Positions 574 to 59,051 of a DNA stretch of 64,000 bases are shown here, one piece after another; the first letter of the stretch is position 1, and each line of letters opens with the position of its first letter. The notes under the pieces were generated by a model. The model was not told the DNA's origin and did no database searches. It saw only the letters and a list, made by a program, of their open reading frames with translations. The position numbers and the translations under genes were made by a program. Where the stretch lies: the NCBI RefSeq assembly GCF_014635845.1, contig NZ_BMDP01000002.1:124001-188000 (forward strand), in the 5' to 3' direction. This DNA comes from Oxalicibacterium solurbis. GTDB lineage: Bacteria; Pseudomonadota; Gammaproteobacteria; Burkholderiales; Burkholderiaceae_D.

Positions 574-609
574 TCAATGCCTGATGAGATTCAAGATTCG
601 AGAGGAGAA

Positions 610-1434
610 ATGTCTGCAATGGAATATGTACTGAAAAAAAACAGGATCCTGATGTTGTCCTTGCTGCTGTTCTGCTGCGCATTGCTGCAGGCAAACGCGC
701 AAACCGCGACGACCGATGTGCCGCTCGGACCGGGCGATGTCGTCAAGATCAGTGTGTTCGGCAACAACGATCTGTCGCTGGAAACGCGCATCAGCGAGGC
801 CGGCACCATTACGTTCCCGCTGATCGGCGAAGTGAAAGTCGGCGGCATGTCCACCGGCCAGGCGGAACACAGGATCGCCGACATGCTCGAAAAAGGCGGC
901 TTCATACGCAATCCGCAGGTCAGCATGATGGTCAGCGAAATGCAGAGCCAGCAGGTTTCGGTGCTGGGGCAAGTCAACAAGCCGGGGCGCTATCCGGTCG
1001 ACGGCAAGCGCAGCCTGACCGACGTGCTGGCCCTGGCCGGCGGCATGACGCCGGATGCCGGCGACAACATCGTGCTGATGCGCACGCGCGACGGCAAGAC
1101 CACCAAGGAAACCATCGATCTGGAAAAGATGATGGGCTCCTCCGATCCGAACAGCAATCCGCAGATGATGGCAGGCGATTCGCTGTATGTGGAACGTGCG
1201 CCGCATTTTTATATCTACGGTGAAGTGCAGAAACCGGGCTCCTACAAGCTGGAACGCAACATGATCGTGTTGCAGGCACTGTCCGCCGGCGGCGGCCTGA
1301 GTCCGCGCGGCACCGAACGCGGCATCCGCATCAAGCGGCGCGATGCAAAAGGTGAATTGCACGAGATCGAAGTCAACCATGACGATCTGGTCAAGGCGGG
1401 CGACATCGTTTATGTCAAGGAAAGCCTGTTTTAA
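610..1434 (+). CDS. epsE: Polysaccharide export outer-membrane protein, EpsE/Wza family
   Basis: A periplasmic/outer-membrane polysaccharide export protein of 274 residues. It has a signal peptide (hydrophobic LMLSLLLFCCALLQ core, cleavage near ANAQ), then the Poly_export domain that starts with LGPGDVVKISVFG, then two SLBB-type segments (VSVLGQVNKPGRYPVDG and FYIYGEVQKPGSYKLERNM). The start at 610 is chosen because GAGGAG lies just before it. An upstream in-frame ATG at 577 would place 11 extra residues before the signal peptide with no good ribosome site. There is no lipobox Cys in the signal region, unlike E. coli Wza; this is usual for EpsE of the methanolan type. It forms the export channel together with the following EpsF/EpsG pair. 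Confidence 0.92.
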   Translation: MSAMEYVLKKNRILMLSLLLFCCALLQANAQTATTDVPLGPGDVVKISVFGNNDLSLETRISEAGTITFPLIGEVKVGGMSTGQAEHRIADMLEKGGFIRNPQVSMMVSEMQSQQVSVLGQVNKPGRYPVDGKRSLTDVLALAGGMTPDAGDNIVLMRTRDGKTTKETIDLEKMMGSSDPNSNPQMMAGDSLYVERAPHFYIYGEVQKPGSYKLERNMIVLQALSAGGGLSPRGTERGIRIKRRDAKGELHEIEVNHDDLVKAGDIVYVKESLF

Positions 1435-1471
1435 ATGAAGTACAGAAAAGCATAGTCAAAGGAAGTAACTC

Positions 1472-2902
1472 ATGACGCTCACTCAGATCCTGCTCGCACT
1501 ACGCGCACGGTATCGCATCATCCTGCTGCTGCTGGTGCTGACGGTTTCGGCCGCCTTCGTCGTCAGCCTCGTGATGTCGAAAACCTACAAGGCGACGACC
1601 TCGCTGGTGCTCAACAGCAAGGGTATCGATCCCGTCACCGGCACCAATGTGCCGACGCAACTGATGCCGGGCTATCTGCCGACGCAGGTCGACATCGTCA
1701 GCAGCAAGGCGGTGGCACTGCAGGTCGTGCGCGACCTGAAGCTGGCCGAGAATCCCGCCGTACGCGAACGCTTCGAGCGTAGCGACCACGGCAACACGAC
1801 GATACAGGACTGGCTGGCCGACGGCCTGCGCGCCAACCTGAAGGTGGAGCCCGCGCGAGAAAGCAGCGTGCTCAACATCACCTTCACCGGCGACGACGCG
1901 CAATACGTGGCCGCCGTGGCGAATGCCTTCGCTTCCGCCTACCAGCAGGTCACCGTGCAGCTGAAGGTGGCGCCGGCGCAGAAGGCGACCGAATATTTCC
2001 ATGCGCAGATCCAGCAATTGCGCGACAGTTTCGAAGCGGCGCAGAACAAGCTGTCGGCCTACCAGAAGCAGCACAACATCTTCAGCAGCAACGACCAGCT
2101 CGACGTCGAAACGTCGCGCATGAACGAGTTGTCCAGCCAGCTGGTAACGGCGCAGGCGCTGGCGATGGAGGCATCGTCGCGCCAGAAGCAGGTCAGGAGC
2201 AGTGCCGCCAATTCGCCGGACGTGCTGAACAATCCGCTGATCCAGTCGCTGAAATCGCGCATGGCGGAAGCCGAAGCGAAGTTCGCCGACGTCTCCGCAC
2301 GCCTGGGCAGCAACCATCCGCAATACATCGCCGCCAAGTCCGAACTGGATGAGGTGCGTGCCAGCCTGAACCGCCAGATCGGCCTCGCCTCGCAAGGCAT
2401 CGTCAGCAATGCACGCATCCAGCAGCAGCGTGTGACGGAACTGCGTGCCGCACTGGATGCGCAGAAAGCCAAGGTCATGCAATTGAACGGCGCGCGCGAC
2501 GAAATGAACGTGTTGACCAACGAGATGGAGAGCGCGAAGAAAGCGTATGAAACCGCGTCGCAGCGCCTGACGCAGACCAGCCTCGAAGGCCAGTCCACGC
2601 AATCGGACATCGCTGTGCTGACGGCCGCCACCGCGCCGTTGCATCCATCTTCGCCGCGCCTGTTGCTGAACCTGCTGGTGGCTGTCGTGGTCGGCTTGAT
2701 TCTCGGTATTGTCGGCGCGATCGCGATGGAATTGCTGGATCACCGCGTGCGTTCCAGCGACGACCTGACGCGCCTGTTCGGCCTGCCGCTGATCGGCGTC
2801 ATCGAAAAGCCGAAAGCCGTCGGCAGCGTGCGCCGTCCGCGCGATCCGCCGCGGCTCGGTCCGCCAGGCTCAGGCTTTGGCCGGCCGCCGGCACCGGCCT
2901 GA
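1472..2902 (+). CDS. epsF: Chain-length determinant / polysaccharide co-polymerase, EpsF family
   Basis: An inner-membrane Wzz/GumC-type co-polymerase of 476 residues that sets chain length and links polymerisation to export. The N-terminal helix (RIILLLLVLTVSAAFVVSLV, about residues 14-33) is followed by a Wzz-type periplasmic head, long coiled-coil-prone helices (about 170-370, rich in Q/E/A) and a second membrane helix (LLLNLLVAVVVGLILGIVGA). The Pro-x-x-Pro type segment before the second helix reads PLHPSSPRLL, as in GumC/EpsF proteins. The last 25 or so residues are an Arg/Pro/Gly-rich cytoplasmic tail. A GGAAGT ribosome site precedes the ATG. The separate ATPase gene follows directly, which fits the two-protein Wzc arrangement. 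Confidence 0.92.
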   Translation: MTLTQILLALRARYRIILLLLVLTVSAAFVVSLVMSKTYKATTSLVLNSKGIDPVTGTNVPTQLMPGYLPTQVDIVSSKAVALQVVRDLKLAENPAVRERFERSDHGNTTIQDWLADGLRANLKVEPARESSVLNITFTGDDAQYVAAVANAFASAYQQVTVQLKVAPAQKATEYFHAQIQQLRDSFEAAQNKLSAYQKQHNIFSSNDQLDVETSRMNELSSQLVTAQALAMEASSRQKQVRSSAANSPDVLNNPLIQSLKSRMAEAEAKFADVSARLGSNHPQYIAAKSELDEVRASLNRQIGLASQGIVSNARIQQQRVTELRAALDAQKAKVMQLNGARDEMNVLTNEMESAKKAYETASQRLTQTSLEGQSTQSDIAVLTAATAPLHPSSPRLLLNLLVAVVVGLILGIVGAIAMELLDHRVRSSDDLTRLFGLPLIGVIEKPKAVGSVRRPRDPPRLGPPGSGFGRPPAPA

Positions 2903-2951
2903 CGCTCTTCCGATTTCGCCACCGAGAAACACCGTTTTGGGAAAACAGCAC

Positions 2952-3848
2952 ATGAGATTATCGAACCAGATTCAGGATGCGGCCAAGCTGCGTTACCAGG
3001 AAGCGCCGCGGCTGACGACCGACCAGATCGGCCGCATCCTGATGGACAACGGGCGTCTGACGCACGAAGAAACCGAACGCATCCTGGAAGAGCAGCGCAT
3101 CAGCCGCCAGCGCTTCGGCGACGCCGGCATCGCGCTGGGATTGCTGACGCCGACCGATATCGAGTTCGCGCTGTCGAACCAGTTTTCCTATCCCTATTTG
3201 CTGCGCGGGCAGAGCACGGTCAGCGAAGAGCTGGTCGCCGCCTACGATCCCTTCAACAAGGAAGTCGAATCGCTGCGCGCGCTGCGCAGCCAGCTGGTGA
3301 TGCGCTGGTTCAGTACCGGCGAGCGCCGTTCGGCACTGGCGATCACCAGCGCCGAAGCCGGCGACGGCCGCAGCTACATCGCCGCCAATCTTGCCGTGCT
3401 GTTCTCGCAGCTTGGCCAGCGCACCTTGCTGATCGATGCCGACATGCGCAATCCGCGCCAGCACCAGTTGTTCGGCGTCGACAACCGCAGCGGCCTGTCA
3501 TCGATCCTTGCCGGGCGCGGCAGCGTGGACGATGTGCAGCGTGTGACGTCGATGATCGACCTGTCCATCCTGCCGGCCGGCGCCACGCCGCCGAATCCGC
3601 AGGAATTGCTGGGTCGCCGTGCGTTCCCGCAGATGCTGGCCGATTACACCGGCGAATACGATGTGATCCTGATCGACACGCCTCCCGACAGCGAATATGC
3701 GGACGGCCAAATCGCCGCCATGCGTGCCGGCGCGGCAATGGTGGTGGCGCGCCGACACGCCAGTCATACCGGTGCCGTCGGCAACCTGGTCGATTCGATG
3801 AAGTATGCGGGCGTGATGGTGGTCGGTGCCGTCCTCAACGATTACTGA
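2952..3848 (+). CDS. epsG: Chain-length determinant BY-kinase-like ATPase, EpsG family
   Basis: A cytoplasmic P-loop protein of 298 residues that partners EpsF, equivalent to the kinase half of Wzc. Residues 1-90 look like the N-terminal helical segment of type II secretion GspE-like proteins (IGRILMDNGRLTHEE, LGLLTPTDIEFALS), which is typical of EpsG. The nucleotide site reads AEAGDGRSYIAANLA, so the usual Walker A Lys is Arg. Walker A' is LLIDADMRNPRQ and Walker B is YDVILIDTPP. The C terminus stops right after VVGAVLNDY and has no tyrosine cluster. Start 2952 (MRLSNQIQ) was preferred to the open frame from 2877, which would overlap epsF. The role in controlling polymer length is inferred from family and position. 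Confidence 0.88.
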   Translation: MRLSNQIQDAAKLRYQEAPRLTTDQIGRILMDNGRLTHEETERILEEQRISRQRFGDAGIALGLLTPTDIEFALSNQFSYPYLLRGQSTVSEELVAAYDPFNKEVESLRALRSQLVMRWFSTGERRSALAITSAEAGDGRSYIAANLAVLFSQLGQRTLLIDADMRNPRQHQLFGVDNRSGLSSILAGRGSVDDVQRVTSMIDLSILPAGATPPNPQELLGRRAFPQMLADYTGEYDVILIDTPPDSEYADGQIAAMRAGAAMVVARRHASHTGAVGNLVDSMKYAGVMVVGAVLNDY

Positions 3849-6028: not shown

Positions 6029-6133
6029 CGATGCGTTTCCAGTCCGATGCAACGCATTGCGTGATGCATTGCGCGCTGTATTGCGTAATGCATGGCAAAA
6101 CGCATGGCGCGGCGCATGCGGAGGAAAGCCGCC

Positions 6134-7684
6134 GTGTTCGCTGATCGCACAATCGAAGACGGTGCATTGCGTTCACGCTGGCTGCCGCAGGAATCGAATG
6201 CGCATACGCTGATCGGCATCATCGTGCTGGCGGTGCTGGCCGGCATCGTCGTGCCGTTCTATGCCGATGCGATGGATTACCGTTTCGCGCGGCTGCTGGC
6301 GTTGCCTGCATTCCTGGTGTTCGGTTTTCTGCTACTGTTCAACCGGCTGTTCCTGCTGGGCCTGATCATCGTGTTCCGCTCGGCCGGCGACATCGTACTG
6401 GATACCACGCGCTTTTCGCTCGGCGGTTACGAAACCGGCGTCGGCGGCCTGATCAACCTGTGCGTGATCTTGCTGGCCTGCATGCTGGTAATCGAGAAAC
6501 CGTCGCGCCTGCCGAAGAAGATGGTGATGGCGTGGCTGCCCTTCCTGCTGGTGGCGGCTTTCGGCGTTGCGCTTGCGCCGTCGAAGGGCGATGCGATCCG
6601 TACTTATCTGACGTTGCTGTCGTACTTCGCGATGTTCGTCGCCGCATTCTATTTTGTGCAGTCGCCGCTGGACTTCCGCAAGTGCGTGAAGCTGGTGTTG
6701 TGGTCGTCGGCGATCCCGGCGCTGTATGCACCGGTCGACGTGCTGCTGCATGCCGGCGCCGGCGGGGCGGAAGGATTCCGCCTGCAATCGACGTTTACGC
6801 ATCCGAACATCATGGCGTTCTACCTGACGCTGATTATCTCGCTGACGCTGTTCACGCTGAAGGACAAGGTCTTGCGTCCGAGCGGGGCCGGCCGTGTCGG
6901 CCTGACGCTGTACATGATCTACCTGTTCGTTCTGCTGGTGCTGACACAGACGCGCAGCGCATGGATCGCCTGCCTGCTGCTGTTCGTTTTCTATGCGCTG
7001 CTGTTCGAGCGGCGCTACCTGATCTATCTGCTGGCGTTGCCGGTGGTGGCGCTGCTGGTGCCTGAGATTCGCGATCGTCTGGTCGACCTGGGCAGCGGCA
7101 ACGAAGCGGTCGGCTACGCGAAGCTGAATTCGTTTGCATGGCGGCTGCAGATCTGGGAAAGCGGCCTGCAATGGATGCAGCCGATGCGCTACCTGTTCGG
7201 TTACGGCATCGACGGCTTCCGCGTGTATTCGCCGATCTTCTTCGAGGCGGCCAACAAGATCAACTGGGGTGCGCACAACGTCTATGTGCAATGGTTCTTC
7301 GATGCGGGTGCAATCGGCCTGGTGGCCTATCTGTGGCTGTACGCCCGTACTGCTTTTTTCATTCGCCAGCTGGCGCGGCGGGATAAGCTGGCCGCCTTCA
7401 TCGCGATCGCGATCGTGATCGTCTATCTGGTGGTTTCTTCGTCGGACAATATGTTCGGCTACCTGGTCTTCAACTGGTATTTCTGGTTCACGGTCGGCGC
7501 TGCCTGCGCACTGGCGGCCGGTGTGCAGACGAAGCGGGCAACGCAGGCCACGCGCGAAAAATCGGAAGACGGGCCGCCTGCACGCACGCCGCCTGGCGAT
7601 GTGCGTGGCGATGTACATGGTGAGCAAGGCGAGGGGCGTACAAAACTGCGCCGCCATCAGCTGCGCGCGGCGGGGCGGCCATGA
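6134..7684 (+). CDS. O-antigen ligase / Wzy-type polymerase-like membrane protein
   Basis: An integral membrane protein of about 516 residues with 10 or more hydrophobic helices and the PF04932 loop LTQTRSAWIA. Such proteins join lipid-linked repeat units (Wzy) or ligate polymers. Within this EPS locus a polymerase role is the likelier one. The start is uncertain. GTG 6134 follows GGAGG at 6120-6124 with good spacing, while ATG 6092 adds 14 Arg-rich residues. The last 45 or so residues are hydrophilic, Arg/Gly/Glu-rich and low in similarity to family members. The stop overlaps the next start (ATGA), which indicates translational coupling. Confidence 0.85.
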   Translation: MFADRTIEDGALRSRWLPQESNAHTLIGIIVLAVLAGIVVPFYADAMDYRFARLLALPAFLVFGFLLLFNRLFLLGLIIVFRSAGDIVLDTTRFSLGGYETGVGGLINLCVILLACMLVIEKPSRLPKKMVMAWLPFLLVAAFGVALAPSKGDAIRTYLTLLSYFAMFVAAFYFVQSPLDFRKCVKLVLWSSAIPALYAPVDVLLHAGAGGAEGFRLQSTFTHPNIMAFYLTLIISLTLFTLKDKVLRPSGAGRVGLTLYMIYLFVLLVLTQTRSAWIACLLLFVFYALLFERRYLIYLLALPVVALLVPEIRDRLVDLGSGNEAVGYAKLNSFAWRLQIWESGLQWMQPMRYLFGYGIDGFRVYSPIFFEAANKINWGAHNVYVQWFFDAGAIGLVAYLWLYARTAFFIRQLARRDKLAAFIAIAIVIVYLVVSSSDNMFGYLVFNWYFWFTVGAACALAAGVQTKRATQATREKSEDGPPARTPPGDVRGDVHGEQGEGRTKLRRHQLRAAGRP

Positions 7685-8697: not shown

Positions 8698-10122
8698 ATG
8701 CAAAAACGCCTTGCCTTCATGCCGGCTTCCTGGTCGACCTTCTGTGGTGCGGCCCTGATCGCTGCTGCGGCAGCCGCGCCGGTCAATGCGCAGACGCAGC
8801 CGGCGCAATGGGGCAGCTACCAGAAGCCGTTCGCGCCGACCTCGCCGTGGAACAGCCGGCCGGTCAATCCGGCCTTCGGCGATTTCGTGATTCCGAAATC
8901 GACCTATTCGCCCGGCGTGGCCGGCGGCGAATGGTCGACCGGCGTATTTCTGGCGAAGCAGGGCGATGCGCCGGTGACGGTCAGCGGTCTGCCGAATACG
9001 CAGGGATTGTGGGATCCGGATGCCGGCAGCAATCATGACGTGACGATTCCGCGCTGGCCGGCCGACGTGCAGGCCGCGACGGCCAGCGACGGCCATGCCG
9101 ATATCGTCGATCCGGTTGCCGGCGTCGTGCATTCGTTCTGGCAATTGAAAAAGCTGAATGGCAAATGGGTTGCCGCGCAATACGCATGGACGCCGCTGAA
9201 CGGCCGTGGCTGGGGCGATCCGGCGCACTACTTCCAGGGTTCGCGCGCAGCCGGCGTGCCGACTTCCGGCGGCCTGATCCGCAAGCACGAGATCGATGAC
9301 GGCGACACCATGTACCGCCACGCATTGGCGATGTCGCTGACATTCACCGGGCTGTCTCCGAATCCCACCTACATCTATCCGGCGACATCCGCCGATACCA
9401 GCGCCGCGACCGCCAATACCGGCCGCATTCCGGAAGGCGCATTGATGATGCTGCCGCCGAGCTACGACACCTCGAAGATCAGCAGTCCGGCGTTGCGCAA
9501 GGTGGCCGAGACGCTGAAGACCTACGGTGCCTATGTCGTCGATCGCAATGGCGGTACGCCGTTCTTCATCTATGTGGAAAACGGTGCGAAGTACGACCTG
9601 CACAGCGGCGGCTGGAACACGGCGGTGGCCAACGATCTGGACCGTATCCGCGCCGCGTTGCGCCAGGTGACTTCGGCGCAGGGCTGGGTCGACGGCAATG
9701 GCCAGGCGTTCACGCTACCGAAGAAATTCAATCTGCTTTCGATGCGCGGTCCGTGGCAGCAATACGCGGGCGGACCGCTCGGTGTTTTCGATACATGGCA
9801 GCAGGCTGTCGTGTTTCCCGCATCGGCCACGCGTGTGACGCAGGTCAATTATTCGTCGCGCGGCATGAACCGAATCACGTGGTCGCTGCCGCAAACGGGG
9901 AAAACGTATCGCGTCTCCGCGATCACCACTGGCGGTGCAAAACTGAAGCTGCAGGTGCGCGATCCGTCCGGCTTGCCGCTGCATTTCGACAGCGGCGAAC
10001 TGGCGAACGGCGAATCGAAGACGTTTGCATGGCCGGCGAACAACGCGATCGTCACCGTGTGGGCGATCAGCGGCGTCAACCAGCCATCCACCGTGCGCGG
10101 CGAACTGCTGTTGCAGGAGTAA
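8698..10122 (+). CDS. Secreted protein of unknown function in the EPS locus
   Basis: A 474-residue protein with a clear signal peptide (FCGAALIAAAAAAPVNAQ, cleavage near residue 31). The mature part is rich in Gly, Trp, Tyr and Pro and looks beta-rich. Marked segments are PFAPTSPWNSRPVNP, GSNHDVTIPRWP, DPVAGVVHSFWQLKK, GGLIRKHEIDDG, RHALAMSLT, IPEGALMMLPPSYD and YGAYVVDRNGG. I recall similar segments from an uncharacterised secreted family also found in actinobacteria, but no named domain was recognised. The last 120 or so residues read like a separate beta domain. Position among glycosyltransferases suggests it binds or cuts the polymer in the periplasm or outside the cell. That is inference only. 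Confidence 0.8.
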   Translation: MQKRLAFMPASWSTFCGAALIAAAAAAPVNAQTQPAQWGSYQKPFAPTSPWNSRPVNPAFGDFVIPKSTYSPGVAGGEWSTGVFLAKQGDAPVTVSGLPNTQGLWDPDAGSNHDVTIPRWPADVQAATASDGHADIVDPVAGVVHSFWQLKKLNGKWVAAQYAWTPLNGRGWGDPAHYFQGSRAAGVPTSGGLIRKHEIDDGDTMYRHALAMSLTFTGLSPNPTYIYPATSADTSAATANTGRIPEGALMMLPPSYDTSKISSPALRKVAETLKTYGAYVVDRNGGTPFFIYVENGAKYDLHSGGWNTAVANDLDRIRAALRQVTSAQGWVDGNGQAFTLPKKFNLLSMRGPWQQYAGGPLGVFDTWQQAVVFPASATRVTQVNYSSRGMNRITWSLPQTGKTYRVSAITTGGAKLKLQVRDPSGLPLHFDSGELANGESKTFAWPANNAIVTVWAISGVNQPSTVRGELLLQE

Positions 10123-10754: not shown

Positions 10755-12008
10755 ATGCATATCGCCTATCTGATCAATCAATATCCGAAGGTCAGCCACA
10801 GCTTCATCCGGCGCGAAATCCTGGCGCTGGAACGCCAGGGCATACGCGTGCAACGTCTCGCGCTACGCGGCTGGGAAGGCGATCTGGTCGACGCCGAGGA
10901 TTTCAGCGAACGCGAACGCACGCGCTATGTGCTGCGCGACGGCATGGGCGGTCTGTTGAAATCGATGGCGAAGATGGCGCTGGCGTCGCCGGCACGTTTC
11001 TTCTCGGGATTGAAACTGGCGTTCAGGATGAGCCGCCGTTCCGACAAGTCCTTGCCTTATCACCTGATCTATTTCGCCGAAGGCTGCCGCATCGCCGAAT
11101 GGCTGCGCGCCGAAGACATTGCACATCTGCATGCGCACTTCGGCACCAATTCGGCGGAGGTGGCGATGCTGGCGGCGGAAGTCGGTGGTTTCCGCTACAG
11201 CCTGACGATCCACGGTTCGGAAGAATTCGACAAGCCGGAATTCATCGGCCTTGGCGAAAAGATACGGCGTGCCTCCTTCGTCGCCGGTGTCACGTCCTAC
11301 TGCCGCAGCCAGCTGTATCGCGCGGTTTCGCACGAGCACTGGGGCAAGATTCACGTCGTGCATTGCGGTGTCGAGCCGGCCTTCCACGACGGCGCGATGC
11401 CTGCGTTGTCGCCGCGGCCGCGTTTCGTCTGCGTCGGCCGGTTGTGCGAACAGAAGGCGCAGCAACTGCTGGTGGAAGCGGTTGCGCTGCTGGCGCGAAA
11501 AGGTGTGGATGTCGAACTCGTGCTGGCCGGCGACGGCGAGATGCGTGACGAAGTGATGGCGATGATCGCGCATCACAAGCTGCAAGACCGCGTACGCATC
11601 ACCGGCTGGATCAGCGGCGAGCAGGTGCGGCAGGAATTGCTGGAAGCGCGCGCGCTGGTGATGGCCAGCTTTGCCGAAGGGCTGCCGGTGGTGATCATGG
11701 AAGCGATGTCGCTGCGCCGTCCGGTGCTGACGACGTGGATCACCGGCATTCCGGAACTGGTGCGCGAAGGCGAAAGCGGCTGGCTGTATCCGCCGGGATC
11801 GGTGGATGAACTGGCGGTAGCGATGGAACGCTGCCTGGCGACGCCGGACGACGAACTGCTGCGCATGGGCGAACGCGCACGCGTGCGCGTGCTGGAACGG
11901 CACGACAGCGATCGCGAGGCCGGCAAGATGGTGACGCTGTTCCGGCAGGCCGAACAGAACAGCATGGTCGAAAGTGCCGCAGGCGGCATGGCGGAGGCGT
12001 ATCGATGA
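10755..12008 (+). CDS. Family 4 glycosyltransferase (colanic-acid WcaL-like)
   Basis: A GT-B fold retaining glycosyltransferase of 417 residues. The N-terminal part has YLINQYPKVSHSFIRREI, typical of WcaL/AmsK-like enzymes. HLHAHFGTNSAEVAMLA follows, and the C-terminal donor site has FVCVGRLCEQKAQQLL, FAEGLPVVIMEAM (the E-x7-E motif) and GIPELVREGESGWL. It starts two bases after the previous stop and overlaps the next start by four bases. It probably adds one sugar of the repeat unit from a nucleotide-sugar donor at the inner face of the membrane. Confidence 0.91.
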   Translation: MHIAYLINQYPKVSHSFIRREILALERQGIRVQRLALRGWEGDLVDAEDFSERERTRYVLRDGMGGLLKSMAKMALASPARFFSGLKLAFRMSRRSDKSLPYHLIYFAEGCRIAEWLRAEDIAHLHAHFGTNSAEVAMLAAEVGGFRYSLTIHGSEEFDKPEFIGLGEKIRRASFVAGVTSYCRSQLYRAVSHEHWGKIHVVHCGVEPAFHDGAMPALSPRPRFVCVGRLCEQKAQQLLVEAVALLARKGVDVELVLAGDGEMRDEVMAMIAHHKLQDRVRITGWISGEQVRQELLEARALVMASFAEGLPVVIMEAMSLRRPVLTTWITGIPELVREGESGWLYPPGSVDELAVAMERCLATPDDELLRMGERARVRVLERHDSDREAGKMVTLFRQAEQNSMVESAAGGMAEAYR

Positions 12009-13195
12009 TGGCCTTGATGGAAATCCTGCTGCTGTCGTTGTTGGCGGTCGTCGCCGTGCCGGTGCTGGTCCTGCTGGTGCAGGCGTGCCTGGCGAAGTCT
12101 TCGCGTGCTGTCTTGCTGCCGGATGCACGCCGTCCGCGCATTACCGTGCTGGTGCCGGCGCACAACGAAGCGAACGGCATCGCCGCTACCGTTACATTGA
12201 TCCGCAGCCAGCTTGACGAAAATGCCGGCGACCGCGTGATCGTCGTCGCCGACAACTGCACCGACATGACGGCATCGATCGCCGCATCCGCCGGTGCGCA
12301 TGTGCTGGAACGGCACGACGAGCTGCGGCGCGGCAAGGGCTATGCGCTGGATCTTGGCGTGCGCGCGTTGATGCAGGATGCACCGGACGCCGTCGTCTTC
12401 ATCGATGCCGATTGCATCGTGCTGCCCGGTTCGGTCGAACTGCTGGCGCGCACGGCATTGGCATCGCAACGGCCGGTACAGGCGCTGGACCTGATGCGCG
12501 CACCGCGCGGCGCCAGCCTGAAGATACGCATCGCCGAATTCGCGTGGGTGGTAAAGAACCGTGTGCGGCCGCTGGGTTTCCATCGCCTCGGTTTACCGTG
12601 CCAGCTGATGGGAACCGGCATGGCGTTTCCGTGGCCCTTGATCGCGCAGGCGCAACTGGCGAACGGCCATATTGCGGAAGACATGAAGCTGGGCATCGAG
12701 ATGGCGAAAGCCGGCCGGCCGACGCTGTTCTGCCAGGAAGCCTGCGTCGTCAGCTACTTTCCCGTCGGCGACGATGCGGCGCGTGCGCAGCGTACGCGCT
12801 GGGAGCACGGCCATCTCGGCATGATCGTGCATGAAGGATTGCCGCTGCTGCGCGATGGCATCGTGCGGCGCGACCGCATGCTGATCGCACTGGCGCTGGA
12901 CATGTGCGTGCCGCCGGTGGCGCTGTTAACGCTGGCCGTCGGCGGCGTTTTTGTGGCGATGCTGGCGATTGCGCTGTTTGCCGGCATGCAGTTGCCTCTG
13001 ATGGCGGCGGCCGCGATTTTTGCATCGCTGGCGTTTGCCGTCTGGCTGTCGTGGTGGCGTTTCGGCCGCCGCATCGTCAGCTTCGGCGATCTGCTGTCGG
13101 CCGTCGGCTATGCGTTCTGGAAGGTGCCGTTGTACGTGAAATTTCTTTTCAGCCGCCAGGTGGAATGGGTGAGGGCCAAGCGCGATGCAGAGTGA
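12005..13195 (+). CDS. Membrane-bound family 2 glycosyltransferase
   Basis: A 396-residue processive-type or dolichyl-like GT2 with an N-terminal membrane helix (EILLLSLLAVVAVPVLVLLV). The GT-A domain has ITVLVPAHNEANGI, VIVVADNCTDM and AVVFIDADCIV, and the Q-x-x-R-W-like RTRWEHGHLGM. Two or three C-terminal helices follow (ALDMCVPPVALLTLAVGGVFVAMLAI and AAAIFASLAFAVWLSWW). ATGA coupling joins it to the upstream GT4 gene and it overlaps the next start by 11 bases. It acts at the inner membrane. The substrate is unknown. Confidence 0.9.
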   Translation: MMALMEILLLSLLAVVAVPVLVLLVQACLAKSSRAVLLPDARRPRITVLVPAHNEANGIAATVTLIRSQLDENAGDRVIVVADNCTDMTASIAASAGAHVLERHDELRRGKGYALDLGVRALMQDAPDAVVFIDADCIVLPGSVELLARTALASQRPVQALDLMRAPRGASLKIRIAEFAWVVKNRVRPLGFHRLGLPCQLMGTGMAFPWPLIAQAQLANGHIAEDMKLGIEMAKAGRPTLFCQEACVVSYFPVGDDAARAQRTRWEHGHLGMIVHEGLPLLRDGIVRRDRMLIALALDMCVPPVALLTLAVGGVFVAMLAIALFAGMQLPLMAAAAIFASLAFAVWLSWWRFGRRIVSFGDLLSAVGYAFWKVPLYVKFLFSRQVEWVRAKRDAE

Positions 13196-14402
13196 AGCGA
13201 AAACAGAACAACGCAGCAATCGACCGGCCTATCCGGTGCGCACCGATTTTCGTCGTCGCGTCGTTTGCATACTCGGCATGCCGTTCGATGTCGTCACGCT
13301 GCAGGAAGCGGTGCAGAAGGTCGGCGATGCGGCGGCGCATGACGTGCGCTGCTTTCTTTCCACGCCGAACCTGAACTTCGCCGTCGCCGGCATGGAGGGC
13401 GGCTCCGCTGCCGATGTATTCCGCGATTCGGTCTTGCGCAGTGACCTGTCGGTGGCAGACGGCATGCCGCTGGTGTGGATTGCACGCCTGCTCGGCCTGC
13501 CGATACGCGAGCGCGTGGCCGGCTCCACATTGTTCGAAGCCCTGCGCCACGGCGAAGCGCGTCGTACCAATGCCGGCCTAATGTCAGTCTATTTCTTCGG
13601 CGGTCCGGACGGCGTGGCCGAGCGCGCGGCGGAAAAGCTCAATGCCTCGTCGTCGTGGCTGCGTTGCGTCGGCTATCGTTCGCCGGGTTTCGCCAGCGTC
13701 GAGGAAATGAGCGATGCGGAAACGATAGATGCGATCAATGCCAGCGATGCCGATTTTCTCGTGGTCGCACTCGGCGCGAAAAAGGGGCAGGCATGGATAG
13801 AGCGGAATCTGTCACGCCTGCAGGTGCCGGTCGTCAGCCATTTGGGCGCGGTCGTCAATTTCGTTGCCGGCACGGTCAGCCGCGCGCCTTCCTGGGTAGG
13901 ACGCAGCGGCATGGAGTGGCTGTGGCGCATCAAGGAAGAACCGGCGCTGTGGAAACGTTACTGGAACGATGGATGGATGCTGCTGAAGCTGGCTGTCACC
14001 CGCATCGTTCCGTGTGCGGTGGCGACCAGATTGCGGCGCCGCGATGCCGAGGCGATGGCGCGTGCGCGCGTGGCCGTGCGCATGTACGGCCGTAGTTGCC
14101 GCATCGTCGCCAGCGGCGTGTGGATGGAAGGAAATCTTTCTGCATTGCGCGATGCCTGCGAACAGGCGACGGCCTCGCCCTGCGATGTGCATGTGGATTT
14201 TGCACGCGTCGTGCAGATAGACAGCGCCTGCATTGCGCTGCTGCTGCTGCTGTACGGTCATCAGACCAAGATTGCGCGCAGCTTCGTGCTGCATAACATC
14301 CGGCCCGCTGTCATGCGCACGATGCGGCTGCATTGTGCGGATTGGCTGGTTGCCTACGATGATCGTGCACAACGTTTTCCGCAACAGACGGTGTTGCCCT
14401 GA
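13185..14402 (+). CDS. WecG/TagA/CpsF glycosyltransferase fused to a C-terminal STAS-like domain
   Basis: A 405-residue protein. Residues 28-250 are a WecG/TagA/CpsF glycosyltransferase: GMPFDVVTLQEAV, STPNLNFAV, SVADGMPLVW with the catalytic-type Asp92, YFFGGPDGVAE, and VSHLGAVVNFVAGTVSRAP. The C-terminal segment (about 250-280) is the Trp/Arg-rich membrane-associating part of the family. Residues 300-392 add a beta-alpha domain that looks like STAS. VHVDFARVVQIDSACIALLL places Ser347 where anti-sigma-factor antagonists carry the phosphorylated Ser, and VLHNIRPAVMRTMRLHCAD matches the late STAS helix. Ordinary TagA/WecG proteins end near 250 residues. The added domain may regulate the transferase. 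That role is inference. Confidence 0.84.
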   Translation: MQSEAKTEQRSNRPAYPVRTDFRRRVVCILGMPFDVVTLQEAVQKVGDAAAHDVRCFLSTPNLNFAVAGMEGGSAADVFRDSVLRSDLSVADGMPLVWIARLLGLPIRERVAGSTLFEALRHGEARRTNAGLMSVYFFGGPDGVAERAAEKLNASSSWLRCVGYRSPGFASVEEMSDAETIDAINASDADFLVVALGAKKGQAWIERNLSRLQVPVVSHLGAVVNFVAGTVSRAPSWVGRSGMEWLWRIKEEPALWKRYWNDGWMLLKLAVTRIVPCAVATRLRRRDAEAMARARVAVRMYGRSCRIVASGVWMEGNLSALRDACEQATASPCDVHVDFARVVQIDSACIALLLLLYGHQTKIARSFVLHNIRPAVMRTMRLHCADWLVAYDDRAQRFPQQTVLP

Positions 14403-17122: not shown

Positions 17123-18546
17123 AGATCCATCCCGTCATTCTTTCCGGCGGTTCTGGCACGCGCCTGTGGCCGCTGTCGCGTGCAGCGCTGCCCAAGCAGT
17201 TGCTGCCGTTGGTATCCGGCCTGACGATGCTGCAGGAAACCGTGCTGCGCGTGGCCGGCCGACCCGGCATTGCGTCGCCGCTGATCGTCTGCGGCGACGA
17301 CCATCGTTTCCTGGTGGCGGAGCAGATGCGCCAGATCGGCGTGGAGCCGCACGCGATCATGCTGGAACCGCAGGGGCGCAATACGGCGCCGGCGATCGGC
17401 GTGGCGGCTTATCACTTGCGCAAGGATGGCGACGACGATGCGCTGATGCTGGTATTGCCGGCCGATCACGTGATACGCGACGTCGAGGCTTTCAACGAAG
17501 GGATTGCGACGGCGGCATCGGTTGCGCAGGGATCGTCGAAACTGGCGACCTTCGGCATCGTGCCGTCGGCGCCGGAATCCGGCTACGGCTACATCCGGCG
17601 CGGCGCGGCGGTGGAGGGAGCATCGGGCTGCTACATGGTCGAGCAGTTCGTCGAGAAGCCGGATCGCGAGACGGCGCAGCAATTCCTCGACGACGGCCGC
17701 TATTCGTGGAACAGCGGCATGTTCCTGTTCCGCGCCGGCGCTTACTTGGATGAGCTGGAACGCCTGCAACCGCAGATGGCAGCCTGCTGCCGCGAAGCCG
17801 TGCAGGAAGCCTACAGCGATCTGTCGTTCTGCCGTCTCGGCAAGGAGGCGTATGCAAAGTGTCCGTCCGAATCGATCGACTTCGCCGTGATGGAGCATAC
17901 GCAGCAGGCGGTCGTGATACCGGCCGATATCGGCTGGAGCGACGTCGGCTCGTGGTCGGCGCTGGCCGACGTGCAGGAACACGACGATCTGGATCGCAAC
18001 GTGCTGCAGGGCGACGTCTATACCGATGGCGTGCGCGATTCCTTCATCCGTGCGGAAAACCGCTTCGTCGCCGTGCTCGGACTGGACAACGTGATCGTTG
18101 TCGAAACCAAGGACGCGGTGCTGATTGCGAACAAGGATGATGTGCAGCGTGTCAAGCAGGTGGTCGATTACCTGAAGCAGGAAAAGCGCTGCGAGCACCT
18201 GAACCATACGAAGGTCTACCGGCCGTGGGGATCGTACGAATCGATCGATGACGGCCATCGCTACCAGGTCAAGCGCATCACCGTCGATCCGGGCGAGAAG
18301 CTGTCGCTGCAGATGCATCACCATCGCGCCGAGCACTGGATCGTCGTGACCGGCACCGCGCTCGTCACCCGTGGTGAAGAGCAGCGGCTGCTGACGGAAA
18401 ATGAATCGGTCTATATCCCGATCGGCACGCAGCACCGGCTGGAAAATCCCGGCAAGATGCCGCTGCATCTGATCGAGGTGCAGTCCGGCGCCTATCTGGG
18501 CGAGGACGATATCGTCCGTTTCGAGGATGTATACCAGCGTGCCTGA
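17119..18546 (+). CDS. manC: Mannose-1-phosphate guanylyltransferase / mannose-6-phosphate isomerase
   Basis: A bifunctional type II enzyme of 475 residues that makes GDP-mannose. The N-terminal pyrophosphorylase has LSGGSGTRLWPLSRAALPKQ at residues 8-27, LEPQGRNTAPAIG, LPADHVI and FVEKPDRETA. The C-terminal cupin isomerase domain, from about residue 370, has VYRPWGSYESID, VDPGEKLSLQMHHHRAEHW and IPIGTQHRLENPG with the metal-binding His residues. It starts with GTG overlapping the previous stop. GDP-mannose made here presumably supplies the glycosyltransferases upstream. Confidence 0.95.
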   Translation: MKIHPVILSGGSGTRLWPLSRAALPKQLLPLVSGLTMLQETVLRVAGRPGIASPLIVCGDDHRFLVAEQMRQIGVEPHAIMLEPQGRNTAPAIGVAAYHLRKDGDDDALMLVLPADHVIRDVEAFNEGIATAASVAQGSSKLATFGIVPSAPESGYGYIRRGAAVEGASGCYMVEQFVEKPDRETAQQFLDDGRYSWNSGMFLFRAGAYLDELERLQPQMAACCREAVQEAYSDLSFCRLGKEAYAKCPSESIDFAVMEHTQQAVVIPADIGWSDVGSWSALADVQEHDDLDRNVLQGDVYTDGVRDSFIRAENRFVAVLGLDNVIVVETKDAVLIANKDDVQRVKQVVDYLKQEKRCEHLNHTKVYRPWGSYESIDDGHRYQVKRITVDPGEKLSLQMHHHRAEHWIVVTGTALVTRGEEQRLLTENESVYIPIGTQHRLENPGKMPLHLIEVQSGAYLGEDDIVRFEDVYQRA

Positions 18547-19819
18547 CGATCATCACCTTTCTCCTTCCGCAGATGTCCAGCCCGGTTCGCCACGTCCGGA
18601 TCGTATCGTCGCGCGCCTGACCGAAATGCGCGGCAATAATGAAGCTACGCATCAGAGTACAAATCAGGTCACGCGCATCGTCTCCTTCGACGACCAGCAG
18701 GTCGGCTGGGAAATGACCGGCCCCGAGGAATGCCTGCCGCCGCCGTTGCGCGTGCACGATCTGGCGGCGACTGCGCTGGTGTTCCTGGCGATGCATCAGG
18801 GACGCGACCTGCACATCGACGGCCCGGTCACGCAATCGCTGCTGCGCAACATGGAAGATCTGATTGCGTGCTGGCATCTGTGGCGTCCCGATCTCTACCG
18901 CATCGTGCGCGTCAGCGCCGAACACGAAGTCACCGATGCGGCCTTGCCGTCGCCTGCGTCGCCGCCGCGCGCGGTGCTCGCCTTCTCGGGCGGCCTCGAT
19001 GCCAGCTTTACCGCATGGCGGCATGTGACGGGCAACGCCGGGCGTCGCAGTCATCTGCTGCATGCCGGCGTGCTGATCCAGGGATTCGATATCGGCCTCG
19101 ATGCCAATGCCGCTTTCACGACGACGGTTTCCACGGCCGCCGATGCGCTGCGCTCGATCAATGTGCCGATGGTGACGATGCGCACCAACTGGCGCGACGT
19201 CGCTTGCGTCAACTGGGAAATGGAATTCGGCAACGGCGTGGCGAGCTGCCTGCGCAACTGGCAGGGCAGTGTGTCGGCCGCGCTGGTCGGCTCCGACGAA
19301 GACTATGCACGTCTGGTGCTGCCGTGGGGCGGCAATCCGATCACTTACACGATGCTGTCGAGCCGCGATTTTCAGGTCGTCTATGACGGCGGTGAATTCA
19401 CGCGTACCGAAAAAGCGGCAGGCATTCTCGACTGGCCCGCCGGCTTGCGCAATCTGCGCGTGTGCTGGGAAGGTCCGCTGACCGGCCGCAATTGCGGGCA
19501 TTGCGAGAAATGCCTGCGTACCAAACTCAATTTCATGGCGCTCGGCGCGCCGCTGCCGGAATCGCTGGCAGGACCGCCGAGCGATGCCGATATCCAGAAC
19601 CTGCGCGTCGGCAACCGCGCGCAACTGGTTCTGCTGCAGGAGATCGTCGAAATGGCGGAGCGTCGCAAGATACGCCAATCGTGGGTGCGCGCATTGAAGA
19701 TCGCCATCGCCAAGAATCGCATGCGTCTCGCCGTGCCGGTCGGTGCTGCGTTGCGGCGCATGACGCAGCCGTTGCGCACGCTGCTGCGTCCGCTGAAACG
19801 TCGATTGGTGTCGCAATGA
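18527..19819 (+). CDS. QueC-like PP-loop ATPase of unknown role in the EPS locus
   Basis: A 430-residue protein not recognised as a standard EPS enzyme. A PP-loop ATP-pyrophosphatase motif (AFSGGLDAS, residues 152-160) is followed by LLHAGVLIQGFDIG. A zinc-type cysteine set comes later: Cys313, Cys323, Cys326 and Cys329 (RVCWEG...RNCGHCEKCLRT). This spacing is close to that of QueC/ExsB enzymes, which activate a carboxylate with ATP to form an amide or nitrile. The N-terminal 145 residues and the basic C-terminal tail do not match QueC. It overlaps manC by 20 bp and is coupled to the flippase gene (ATGA). The start could also be GTG 18539. An ATP-dependent amidation of a sugar acid or lipid-linked intermediate is a guess. 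Confidence 0.82.
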   Translation: MYTSVPDDHHLSPSADVQPGSPRPDRIVARLTEMRGNNEATHQSTNQVTRIVSFDDQQVGWEMTGPEECLPPPLRVHDLAATALVFLAMHQGRDLHIDGPVTQSLLRNMEDLIACWHLWRPDLYRIVRVSAEHEVTDAALPSPASPPRAVLAFSGGLDASFTAWRHVTGNAGRRSHLLHAGVLIQGFDIGLDANAAFTTTVSTAADALRSINVPMVTMRTNWRDVACVNWEMEFGNGVASCLRNWQGSVSAALVGSDEDYARLVLPWGGNPITYTMLSSRDFQVVYDGGEFTRTEKAAGILDWPAGLRNLRVCWEGPLTGRNCGHCEKCLRTKLNFMALGAPLPESLAGPPSDADIQNLRVGNRAQLVLLQEIVEMAERRKIRQSWVRALKIAIAKNRMRLAVPVGAALRRMTQPLRTLLRPLKRRLVSQ

Positions 19820-21273
19820 AGAATCTGCGCCGTGCCGTACCATGGGCGATCGTCGACAGCGTCGGCGTCGGCCTGCTCGGTTTCCTGACGCTGGGCATCA
19901 TGTCGCGCGTGCTGACGGCGGCCGATTTCGGCAGCGTCGCCTTCGCGCAAGCCATCGTGCTGATGATGCAGCTCGTCATCGCACTCGGCATCAACGAAGC
20001 GCTGATCCAGCGCCGGCCTATCGATATGCTGCATATCGACAGCGCGTTCTGGATGGCGCTGGCGCTCGGTTTTTCCGGCTTCCTGTTCTGCGCCTGCATC
20101 GGTCTGTATTTCATCTATATGGCGGGGCAGCCGCTGGTCGGTACCATTCTCCTCATCGAAGGAACGGCTTGTTTCTTCACCGGTTTGAACCTGCTGCCGT
20201 CGGCGATGCTGGACCGCAAGATGCGCACCAAGGCAGTGGCACGCCGCACCGTGCTCGGGCGTCTCAGCTACTGCGTGGTCGCGATCGGTCTGGCGCTGGC
20301 GAATTTCGGCGTCTGGAGTATCGTCATCGCCGGCGTCGTGCAGAACCTGGTGCTGACGACGATCTTCTGGCGCGGCCTGCAGCGCTGGCCTAAGCGGCGT
20401 TTCTCGTGGCCGCATGCGAAGCAGCTGATCACGTTCGGCGTGCCGGTGATGCTGGAAGGCGCGCTGTGGGCATTCCTGACGCGCGGCTTCAATCTGCTGA
20501 TCGGCGCCATCCATGGTTTGACGGTGCTGGGTCTGGTCAGCGTCGCGTTCAAGGCGACCGATGCGCTGTCCAACATCGTCGGCAACGTGGCCGGCCGTAT
20601 CGGCCTGCCGTTCTTCTCGGCCTTGCAGCAGGATCGCGCGCACATGCAGCGTGCCTTCCTGCGCATCACGCAGGCAACCACCTTTATCTCCGGCCCGATC
20701 TTCGTCGGCCTCGCATTGACGGCGCATCAATGGGTGCCGCTCTTGCTCGGCGAAAAATGGAGCGAGGCGATCCCGTTGATCGTCGTGCTGTGCCTGATGT
20801 GGGTGACCAGCTTCACGCGCATCTTCGTTAGCCCGTACCTGCGTGCACTCGGCCATCCGCGCGCCTTGCTCTTACCCGGCCTGTGTGCCAGCGCCTGCAC
20901 GATCGCGGTGGTATTCCTGACGGCAGGGCATGCGCCTATCTACATCATGCTGGCGTGGTCGTGCCGCGTGCTGGTCACTTATCCGCTTGGCTTGCTGTTG
21001 CTGCGCAAATACGCCGGCATCAGCGTCGGTCGCCAGTTGCGTCCGCTGGCGATGCCTGCGTTCTGCGTGGCGACGATGTCGGCCTGCGTGCTGGGATTGC
21101 AGTCGGTGATGACTGGTCACGAATGGTCGCTGATGACGGAACTGCTGGCTTCGATGGCGGTGGGCGCGTTCAGCTATGCGGCCATCGTCCTGTTCATGCA
21201 TAGACGCAGACTGCCGGCCATGCTGGCGGACTGGCGTGGCGGCAGTGGCGGAATGGGGATGAAGGCCCGCTGA
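19816..21273 (+). CDS. Wzx-type polysaccharide flippase (MOP/MATE-like)
   Basis: A 485-residue membrane protein with about 12-14 hydrophobic helices, of the polysaccharide-transporter (Wzx/TuaB/WzxC) type. The N-terminal AVPWAIVDSVGVGLLGFLTLGIMSRVLTAADFG and the middle ITFGVPVMLEGALWAF and LGLVSVAFKATDALSNIVGN segments are typical. It would turn undecaprenyl-linked repeat units over to the periplasm. The start at 19816 overlaps the PP-loop gene stop by four bases. It closes the EPS locus; the next genes lie on the other strand. Confidence 0.9.
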   Translation: MKNLRRAVPWAIVDSVGVGLLGFLTLGIMSRVLTAADFGSVAFAQAIVLMMQLVIALGINEALIQRRPIDMLHIDSAFWMALALGFSGFLFCACIGLYFIYMAGQPLVGTILLIEGTACFFTGLNLLPSAMLDRKMRTKAVARRTVLGRLSYCVVAIGLALANFGVWSIVIAGVVQNLVLTTIFWRGLQRWPKRRFSWPHAKQLITFGVPVMLEGALWAFLTRGFNLLIGAIHGLTVLGLVSVAFKATDALSNIVGNVAGRIGLPFFSALQQDRAHMQRAFLRITQATTFISGPIFVGLALTAHQWVPLLLGEKWSEAIPLIVVLCLMWVTSFTRIFVSPYLRALGHPRALLLPGLCASACTIAVVFLTAGHAPIYIMLAWSCRVLVTYPLGLLLLRKYAGISVGRQLRPLAMPAFCVATMSACVLGLQSVMTGHEWSLMTELLASMAVGAFSYAAIVLFMHRRRLPAMLADWRGGSGGMGMKAR

Positions 21274-43642: not shown

Positions 43643-44590
43643 TTACGGCGCGTTGGTGGCGGCGACGCAGTTCCGGCCGTTCTGCTTGGCGAGATAGAGT
43701 TGCTTGTCCACCGATTCGATGAAAGCGGTCAGCTTGTCCTTCTCGGTCGGGATGATGGTGCCGACGCCGAGGCTGATGGTGACCTTGCTGCAGATGCCGG
43801 ATTTTTCATGGGCGAGCGCTTCGTTGCAGATCAGCGTGCGGCAGCGTTCGGCGATCTTGAGCGCTGCGTCCTGATCCGTTTCCGGCAGGACGAGCATGAA
43901 TTCCTCGCCGCCGAAGCGGGCGAAGAAGTCGCGCGATCTGCGGGTGGCGGAGCCGAGGATGGTGGCGACGGTCTTCAGGCATTCGTCACCCTGAAGATGG
44001 CCGTAGTGATCGTTGTACTGCTTGAAGTAGTCGATATCGAGCATGACGAGCGACAGCGGCTGGTAATTGCGCCGCGCGTTGTGCCATTCGGCGTCCATCA
44101 CGGTGTCGAACATGCGGCGGTTGGCGACGCCGGTCAGGCCGTCCTTGAAGGACAGCGCTTCGAGTTCCTTCTGCATGTCGATCAGCTTGGCTTCGGTTTT
44201 CTTGCGGTCGCTAATGTCGAACATGAATCCGATCAACGCATCGACTTCGCCATCGGCATTGCGCATGACGTGCACGACGTCGCGTATCCAGACGTAGTTG
44301 CCGTCCTTGGTCAGTGCGCGGTAATCGGCTTCGTGATCGGTGCCGGACTTGGATTGCGAGACGCAGAAGTTGACGACCCATTCGCGATCTTCCGGGTGCA
44401 TGCGCTCGGCCCAGTCGTTGGCGCTGATCCAACTGTCCTGCGTCCAGCCGAGCAAGGCCTCGATCTGCGGCCCGATGTAGGCGAAGGTCATGCTTTTCCA
44501 GTCGATCTTCCACGGAATGGCTTTGGTGGATTCGAGCAGGGTTTTGTAGACGGCAGAGTCGTTTGCCATCTGCGATGCGATGTCGGCCAT
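43643..44590 (-). CDS. Diguanylate cyclase with a PAS sensor domain
   Basis: A 315-residue cytoplasmic signalling protein. Residues 15-130 are a PAS domain of the PAS_3 type (YIGPQIEALLGWTQDSW, MHPEDREWV, YVWIRDVVHVMRNADGEV). Residues 145-312 are a GGDEF domain with an active FGGEEF (residues 226-231) and the I-site RSRD (218-221) for product inhibition. So it should make cyclic-di-GMP, possibly linked to control of the EPS. The sensed signal is unknown. It stands alone on the - strand. Confidence 0.94.
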   Translation of the reverse strand: MADIASQMANDSAVYKTLLESTKAIPWKIDWKSMTFAYIGPQIEALLGWTQDSWISANDWAERMHPEDREWVVNFCVSQSKSGTDHEADYRALTKDGNYVWIRDVVHVMRNADGEVDALIGFMFDISDRKKTEAKLIDMQKELEALSFKDGLTGVANRRMFDTVMDAEWHNARRNYQPLSLVMLDIDYFKQYNDHYGHLQGDECLKTVATILGSATRRSRDFFARFGGEEFMLVLPETDQDAALKIAERCRTLICNEALAHEKSGICSKVTISLGVGTIIPTEKDKLTAFIESVDKQLYLAKQNGRNCVAATNAP

Positions 44591-58015: not shown

Positions 58016-58978
58016 TTATCTGATGGTGCTGTTTTGCAATGCCGATATCGCGTCGCCGCTTTTACGGCATTTCTTGTCGGCATACATGCGGGCATCCGCC
58101 TGTTCGGATGCTGCACGCAGGCCCTGTTGGGGATGGCGATTGGCATGGCCGATGGATGCACGGATGCCGCTTTCCTGAAACTTGTGTTTCAGGCGGGCAA
58201 CCAAGGCTTCTGCCGAGACCGGATCGCATTCGACGGCAAGGATTGCAAACTCGTCGCCGCCAAGGCGGGCGACGACGTCATGATGGCGTGCCACCGCGCG
58301 CAGGGCTTGTGACGCGTTCTGCAACAGGCGGTCGCCGGCGGCGTGGCCTTGTTCGTCGTTGATGCGTTTGAGATCGTCCAGATCGATTGAAATGACACAG
58401 GCAGGATTGCCGTAGCGTTTGCAGCGTTCTTCCTCGCGCTCCATCAACTGATCCCAGCCGCGGCGGTTGTACAGCGAGGTCAGTCCATCGGAGGCTGCTT
58501 CGGCTTCCGCATGTTCGGCGCGCCGGCGATTGTCGGTGGCAGCAAGCTCCGTATTCAGCAGACTGCCAAGCAGGTCGGCCAGCAATTCGACCAGCGCTTG
58601 ATCGTTGCGAATACTGTCGGGTTGAGGCTGGGGATCGATCGCGCACAGTGTGCCGAACAGCGAACCGTCCGAGCGCCGGATGGGCACACCGATATAGGCG
58701 CCGATCTGCTGTTGTGAGGTGACCGGTGCCGTGGCATACGCCTCGATTTCCTGCGCGCGTGGCGCAACCCGCGGCCCAAGGCCATCGACCATGCGGGAGC
58801 AGAAGGAATCGGACCAGCGCGATACGTCGCCCGGTTTTGTATTGTTGCCGGATTCCTCGACAGTCAGGACGATCCGATCATTGCCTTCGGTGCGGGTAAG
58901 CACCCATAAATCGAAGCCGAAACGTTCGCGCAGAAAGTGCAGCGTGGTTTGCGAAGCGGAAGCAAAATCATGAATCAT
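58016..58978 (-). CDS. Diguanylate cyclase with a GAF sensor domain
   Basis: A 320-residue cytoplasmic protein. Residues 1-145 are a GAF domain (IGAYIGVPIRRSDGSLFGTLCAIDP). Residues 160-315 are a GGDEF domain with SDGLTSLYNRRGW, an active LGGDEF (239-244) and I-site RHHD (231-234). It should make cyclic-di-GMP in response to a small molecule or redox signal. GGAGAAA precedes ATG 58978; the earlier open frame overlaps the MFS gene. It is the second such cyclase in the window. Confidence 0.93.
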   Translation of the reverse strand: MIHDFASASQTTLHFLRERFGFDLWVLTRTEGNDRIVLTVEESGNNTKPGDVSRWSDSFCSRMVDGLGPRVAPRAQEIEAYATAPVTSQQQIGAYIGVPIRRSDGSLFGTLCAIDPQPQPDSIRNDQALVELLADLLGSLLNTELAATDNRRRAEHAEAEAASDGLTSLYNRRGWDQLMEREEERCKRYGNPACVISIDLDDLKRINDEQGHAAGDRLLQNASQALRAVARHHDVVARLGGDEFAILAVECDPVSAEALVARLKHKFQESGIRASIGHANRHPQQGLRAASEQADARMYADKKCRKSGDAISALQNSTIR

Positions 58979-59051
58979 GTGTTTCTCCGGGCTGGCAACG
59001 CACGCACCATACCAAAAACGACAGTGTGCGTCACTTGTGCAAAGACGTAGC

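Follow-up and report, generated by a model that had tools for sequence, protein, structure and literature searches.

The gene at positions 13185 to 14402 (+ strand) of the 64,000-nucleotide stretch of Oxalicibacterium solurbis DNA that we analyzed (the window) encodes a fusion of a TagA/WecG-type glycosyltransferase with a STAS domain. This fusion is confirmed as real, and comparison of related sequences indicates that it marks a conserved branch of GT26 enzymes in proteobacteria. The open reading frame begins with ATG, has no internal stop, and specifies a GT26 (WecG/TagA/CpsF) glycosyltransferase-STAS protein of 405 residues, as judged from its translation, Pfam and NCBIfam searches, and an AlphaFold model. 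A first-pass annotation had proposed a complete TagA-type domain followed by a STAS unit, and this architecture was borne out: PF03808 (WecG/TagA/CpsF) matches residues 86 to 259 with 162.4 bits (cutoff, 27.4; E 1e-47), PF13466 (STAS_2) matches residues 312 to 382 with 44.2 bits (cutoff, 29.2; E 2e-11), and the modeled folds match. The second Pfam STAS model, PF01740, scored 18.5 bits, under its cutoff of 22.6. The NCBIfam superfamily model TIGR00696 gave 93.4 bits (cutoff, 69), and the closest relative by sequence in the PDB is TagA (7mpk, E 1.1e-24).

Three regions can be delimited along the chain. The GT26 catalytic core spans residues of about 26 to 251 (positions 13260 to 13938, +) according to Pfam, an alignment with TagA, and structure matches; the C-terminal appendage helices follow at about 244 to 284 (13914 to 14036, +) according to the model and the TagA alignment; and the STAS domain occupies about 289 to 393 (14049 to 14363, +), as supported by Pfam, the model, structure matches, and a sequence profile. 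The AlphaFold model, for which we used an alignment of 72 fusion relatives, reached a pLDDT of 92.2 and a pTM of 0.90, and its C-terminal elements run in the order of a STAS domain (strands 295 to 301 and 304 to 313, helix 319 to 328, strand 334 to 345, helix 347 to 362, strand 367 to 370, helix 374 to 382). Foldseek retrieved TagA and TarA with this model (TMt 0.86 to 0.91), then RsbV, SpoIIAA, TM1442, and MlaB. With VIA-align, TarA matched over residues 26 to 229 with Z 23.9 (TagA matches, Z 23 to 24), and RsbV matched over residues 293 to 392 with Z 14.7. A sequence profile of 76 STAS parts likewise matched PDB chains of TM1442 (best, E 6.9e-16), SpoIIAA, RsbV, and MlaB. Fold order, RsbV match, and profile all agree on the C-terminal part as a STAS domain. 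The motif originally quoted for this unit lies at residues 343 to 358, and Ser347 (codon 14223 to 14225, +) is located as claimed; in the translation and model it is the first residue of STAS helix 2. This placement supports equating it with the serine whose phosphorylation is known from STAS proteins of the SpoIIAA type.

A GT26 branch with a STAS domain

Conservation of the fusion in relatives had been put forward as a check on its reality. Within the genus, 10 of 13 genomes carry the fusion, and the other 3 hold only distant GT26 proteins. We also scanned bacterial genomes for relatives with the patterns P[VI][VI]SHLGAV and GA[KR]KGQAW, keeping the best 80 of 163 relatives as loci. A STAS domain is found in the same open reading frame in 75 of these 80 loci when the family HMM is used, which was trained on most of them, and in 72 when the HMM derives only from 13 fusions of the genus and its neighbors. 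Because the extension is kept in so many of the genus genomes and of the best 80 loci, the pairing of the two domains is not a chance event. The five exceptions comprise three loci without STAS (L104, L107, and L121), one at a contig end (L124), and one with STAS in the next open reading frame (L064). At this last locus, on a metagenome contig (L064:10028-11164), an in-frame stop falls precisely at the junction of the two domains, and is either a natural split or possibly a sequence error. Hosts of the scan loci include Burkholderiales, Rhodocyclales, Nitrosomonadales, methylotrophs, and some Gammaproteobacteria (e.g., Methylococcaceae and Methylophaga); two records labeled Lokiarchaeota and Chitinophaga are metagenome bins that may be misassigned.

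Other GT26 loci gave a different picture. No STAS domain was found in 45 of them, collected by searching 60 relatives plus 185 genomes belonging to the class. Of 398 genomes of the phylum, 64 have a GT26 match with an E value of 1e-30 or lower, and among these the match in the O. solurbis genome alone extends through the STAS part; 29 other GT26 loci fetched from this search also contained no STAS domain.

A tree of 127 GT26 cores places all 83 members of the family in a single clade (support, 100/100; branch, 1.39) separate from the 44 others, with the proviso that the bootstrap was unsettled and that the program flagged the joining of OG_L014 to the clade as a possible long-branch effect. 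Judged from these sequences, the fusion is old, and the simplest reading would be that STAS was gained once and then lost once, among Curvibacter/Rhodoferax. Three Curvibacter/Rhodoferax relatives have no STAS domain, keep the same core, and look intact; the domain is therefore dispensable at least there. STAS is also the fastest-evolving part of the protein, with a mean pairwise identity of 0.26 versus 0.59 for the core. Several conserved surface positions do exist on it, e.g., R322, where 76 of the sequences not gapped at this site have R or K.

The exopolysaccharide locus and the sugar donor

The fusion gene sits in a Wzx/Wzy-type exopolysaccharide locus. EpsE, EpsF, and EpsG export, chain-length, and tyrosine kinase genes lie at 577 to 3848 (+; TIGR03028, TIGR03017, and TIGR03029, each over its cutoff), followed by a Wzy_C polymerase/ligase-type membrane protein (6092 to 7684, +; Pfam). 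An EpsE-like GT4 glycosyltransferase (10755 to 12008, +) precedes an EpsU-like membrane GT2 glycosyltransferase (12005 to 13195, +), the gene of which shares an 11-base overlap with the fusion gene; both were assigned with Pfam and NCBIfam. A Bac_transf initiator, a pyruvyl transferase, another GT2, and acyltransferases are also encoded upstream, and GalE-, nucleotidyltransferase-, and ManC-type genes are encoded downstream, along with a Wzx-type flippase (Polysacc_synt_3 in Pfam; 19462 to 21273, +, as listed, with a provisional start). Two proteins of the locus, of 474 residues (8698 to 10122) and 430 residues (18527 to 19819), have no Pfam or NCBIfam match; among the best 80 loci (of 163 relatives), 16 have a relative of the former in their flanking sequence. 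The flanks of these same best 80 of 163 also contain exosortase genes in 14 cases and PrsT-like genes in 13 (L109, L110, L115, L118, L120, and others), the L115 exosortase being of the XrtD type.

The active site resembles that of TagA in part. Residues equivalent to TagA T37, D65, R83, R214, and R224 (T60, D92, R110, R248, and R258 in the fusion protein) are kept in 83 of 83 clade members. Y137 is replaced by Gly, Q167 likewise by Gly (83/83), and D191 by Asn (82/83), while among 44 other GT26 proteins Q occupies the Q167 position in 39 and D the D191 position in 43. The Arg221 position holds Ala254 in the fusion protein; across the clade it is Arg in 1 and Lys in 7 of 83, compared with Arg in 42 of 44 other GT26 proteins. 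The appendage motif reads EP-x-L-W in all 83 clade rows and is one residue shorter than that of TagA. STAS-less relatives have the same short motif, and STAS is thus no simple replacement for Arg221. The scan patterns contained two of these motifs, which in part predetermines their conservation among the 83 clade rows; the same motif residues appear in the 13 rows of alignment A1, which were found by a search without patterns. In TagA, as described in PMC6493773, Asp191 contacts the ribose and Tyr137 packs against the base, while Arg221 has been proposed to stabilize the leaving group; the appendage is what attaches the enzyme to the membrane, and it also completes the active site.

These replacements bear on the sugar donor. 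The fusion protein scored 70 bits with the TarA equivalog NF041710 (cutoff, 350) and 51.9 bits with the WecG equivalog NF002980 (cutoff, 323). A UDP-GlcNAc 2-epimerase (PF02350) had no match in the O. solurbis genome (completeness, 100) and was also absent from two other fusion-bearing genomes (G003 and G010). The loss of donor-site residues and the absence of PF02350 from these three genomes disfavor UDP-ManNAc as the donor, although the epimerase argument rests on those three: of 13 fusion genomes in this search, 10 possess an epimerase, as do 11 of 14 control genomes. The branch is thus best described as TagA-like in fold and probably not a ManNAc transferase. UDP-hexose or GDP-mannose could serve as donors, a guess prompted by the nearby GalE and ManC genes. 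The term "TagA-type" used in the first-pass annotation accordingly holds for the fold and the catalytic T60 and D92 and fails for the donor site, where Arg221, Y137, Q167, and D191 are changed. Because the donor site of this GT26 branch departs from that of TagA, homology-based annotation of its genes as ManNAc transferases is probably wrong.

Possible roles of the STAS domain

The fusion had been suggested to tie sugar transfer to a partner switch. In the O. solurbis genome, a HATPase_c_2 search gave 13 matches, and those over the cutoff all lie in open reading frames of 360 to 765 residues, so no small RsbW-like kinase over the cutoff was found; the matches inside the window are histidine kinases. 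Small open reading frames over the cutoff were likewise absent from all nine fusion-bearing genus genomes in this set (O. solurbis included, G004 outside it). Among 16 genomes, small HATPase_c_2 open reading frames occur in G034 (fusion present, 142 residues), G006 (no fusion, 151 residues), and G039 (no fusion). Three PF07228 matches exceed the cutoff in the O. solurbis genome; with translations read by eye, two are fusions of PP2C with a Ser/Thr kinase and the third is a phosphatase resembling PppA, and they appear to be other PPM types rather than evident RsbU types. STAS and STAS_2 searches of this genome found a 514-residue protein, a 714-residue protein, a 102-residue MlaB-like protein, and the fusion itself. 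A canonical partner switch was rejected as a candidate, as HATPase_c_2, SpoIIE, STAS, and STAS_2 searches of this genome and HATPase_c_2 searches of 16 genomes revealed no dedicated module close to the fusion gene. When the flanking sequences of the best 80 loci (of 163 relatives) were surveyed for kinases and PP2C phosphatases with regular expressions, one HATPase-like open reading frame emerged (L052); this survey is no proof of absence because it is crude and missed at least the L084 histidine kinase that Pfam found.

Ser347 itself is inconstant. It is present in 51 of 77 evaluable sequences, whereas 10 have Ser only at 346 and 16 have neither. In this count, seven scan loci sharing contigs with loci of the pattern-free search were dropped; one locus was cut by a contig end (L114), and three others (L080, L088, and L096) also stand outside it and read D-A, D-S, and D-P. 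The Ser347 state needs 18 changes over the tree, and well-supported branches force at least 11 of these. Several changes are single swaps in which the neighboring Asp is kept (D-A-A, D-G-A, D-N-A), and they are scattered even between close relatives, such as two Cycloclasticus rows. All 13 sequences of alignment A1 have Ser347. Ser is lost more often than a phospho-dependent domain should allow, which disfavors such a function. With no small RsbW-like kinase, no evident RsbU, and an inconstant Ser347, the proposed partner-switch link was not supported in its canonical form, and a canonical RsbV/RsbW switch is unlikely in this genome.

We instead favor, as an evenly balanced judgment, a STAS domain that serves as a docking or regulatory module. 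The GT26-fold enzyme would add a sugar to an undecaprenyl-linked repeat unit of the Wzx/Wzy-type exopolysaccharide, and STAS, lying directly after the putative membrane-binding appendage helices, would position or gate the transferase at the membrane, as MlaB serves MlaF. Here we infer membrane association from TagA, along with a donor other than UDP-ManNAc. The first candidate for a STAS partner would be the adjacent EpsU-like GT2. Among 62 unique STAS-bearing loci with sufficient flanking sequence, 33 have this GT2 immediately upstream and 29 do not; it is found in none of three STAS-less relatives, a difference that is not significant (p 0.11). In a mirror-tree analysis that allowed for the core, STAS and GT2 gave a weak partial r of 0.136 (permutation p 0.021), compared with 0.664 for the core and GT2, and STAS and GT4 gave no signal (partial r 0.092, p 0.17). 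We set docking to the GT2 neighbor aside on these weak or nonsignificant results, and our analyses found no STAS partner.

Retention of Ser347 in those 51 sequences counts against docking, as a phospho-switch would explain it; the rapid drift of STAS and its absence from the three Curvibacter/Rhodoferax relatives also weigh against docking. In such a switch, a kinase outside the SpoIIAB/RsbW family, perhaps one of the genome's PP2C-linked Ser/Thr kinases or one encoded elsewhere, would phosphorylate Ser347 and turn the transferase off or on. The place of Ser347 at the opening of helix 2 in the model, its presence throughout alignment A1, and the two PP2C-Ser/Thr-kinase fusions are in keeping with this, as is the control of Vibrio fischeri SypA by SypE via Ser56 (PMC8256260 and PMC4517449). 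We nonetheless regard a phospho-switch as unlikely, if with some real chance: 26 of 77 sequences are without Ser347, 16 of these without Ser346 too, the changes are scattered, and the nine genus genomes have no small RsbW-like open reading frame over the cutoff. G034 and G006 do have one. STAS might alternatively act as a structural cap that stabilizes the appendage or blocks a TagA-like inactive dimer, with neither signal nor partner involved. The whole-chain pTM of 0.90 suggests a fixed arrangement of domains in the model, the STAS sequence drifts fast even as the domain stays, and TagA, which needs its appendage, lacks activity when dimeric, according to PMC6493773. Such a cap is distinctly unlikely given that the three relatives without STAS keep the same core and that STAS surface positions such as R322 are conserved.

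It appears very unlikely that STAS is a sensor that adjusts the transferase upon binding a nucleotide, second messenger, or lipid. GTP binding by SpoIIAA has been reported, per a reference cited in PMC8256260, and the two diguanylate cyclases noted further along the window are real, with GGDEF domains encoded at 43646 to 44590 and 58016 to 59092. However, these genes are about 29 and 44 kb from the fusion gene on the opposite (-) strand, and no ligand motif was found in STAS. The suggested c-di-GMP link of the STAS domain was not found, and a weak c-di-GMP motif turned up in EpsG instead. This EpsG-type tyrosine kinase (2877 to 3848) has an N-terminal MshE-like motif at residues 50 to 102, scoring 34.5 bits, below the cutoff of 38. 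MshEN domains are named in connection with Methylobacillus exopolysaccharide synthesis in PMC5013675. The EpsG motif would be a likelier c-di-GMP input to the locus than the STAS domain.

Signaling genes do occur beside some family members. At three loci, a free STAS gene of the RsbV-like kind is found no more than about 2 kb from the fusion (L084:4227-5968, L106:4534-4869, and L112:5906-6241), and we consider these genes the best hint of signaling around the fusion family. At L084 the free gene is accompanied by histidine kinase, receiver, and Hpt genes; a 188-residue open reading frame there (L084:5405-5968) had no Pfam match. The free STAS protein at L115 was discarded as a fusion-linked partner, being MlaB by gene context. 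In a genome without the fusion, a free 107-residue STAS protein (L030) matches the fusion STAS HMM at 2e-17 and adjoins a kinase-like open reading frame and a receiver-SpoIIE phosphatase. More broadly, STAS domains of polysaccharide loci might act directly on glycosyltransferases, in cis through GT26 fusion and elsewhere in trans as free proteins such as SypA or the RsbV-like proteins encoded beside three members. We think this generalization unlikely, but if it were true, the fused branch would be a "Rosetta stone" for STAS control of membrane sugar transfer, with a remodeled donor site.

Relation to known systems

The fusion protein shares with TagA/TarA, WecG, and other GT26 (PF03808) enzymes the fold, the Thr37/Asp65 and Arg214/Arg224 equivalents, and the appendage helices. 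It differs from them in adding STAS, in an appendage that is one residue shorter and has no Arg221, in a GAKKGQAW motif replacing the GAPKQExW type, in the change of Asp191 to Asn, and in a genome with no UDP-ManNAc supply. Its best NCBIfam relative is EpsA (NF041872), a model of 265 positions without STAS, at 126.6 bits and far below the cutoff of 500. EpsE, EpsU, and EpsC models are likewise best for the GT4, GT2, and acetyltransferase neighbors, all under their cutoffs (236.8/400, 242.1/700, and 106/150 bits, respectively). These Eps names are those of the exopolysaccharide system of Myxococcus xanthus. The STAS part resembles RsbV, SpoIIAA, TM1442, and MlaB in fold and sequence profile. 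Unlike RsbV/SpoIIAA-type proteins, it is fused to an enzyme, its Ser is inconstant, and kinase and phosphatase partners were not found.

A search of the open-access literature found no STAS domain combined with WecG, the CpsF family, or an exosortase, and the open-access papers combining the terms STAS domain, glycosyltransferase, and fused were, by their listings, on other topics. SypA of V. fischeri is a STAS protein that, like the fusion, belongs to a biofilm polysaccharide locus and has a non-sigma-factor function; the relation drawn here is one of fold. It acts in biofilm formation outside sigma control, by a mechanism and on a target described as unknown, and the residues needed for its function sit in the helix after Ser56 (both from PMC4517449). 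Unlike the fusion, SypA stands alone as a protein and has its own kinase/phosphatase, SypE. Anabaena all4160 is a glycosyltransferase with an N-terminal STAS domain, as cited in PMC8256260, whereas STAS is C-terminal in the fusion protein. The pairing of a glycosyltransferase with STAS was already known from all4160; what appears new here, as far as the open-access literature shows, is a lineage of GT26 enzymes that both carries STAS and has an altered donor site. A glycosyltransferase carrying its own STAS domain offers a direct handle on STAS control of biofilm polysaccharides.
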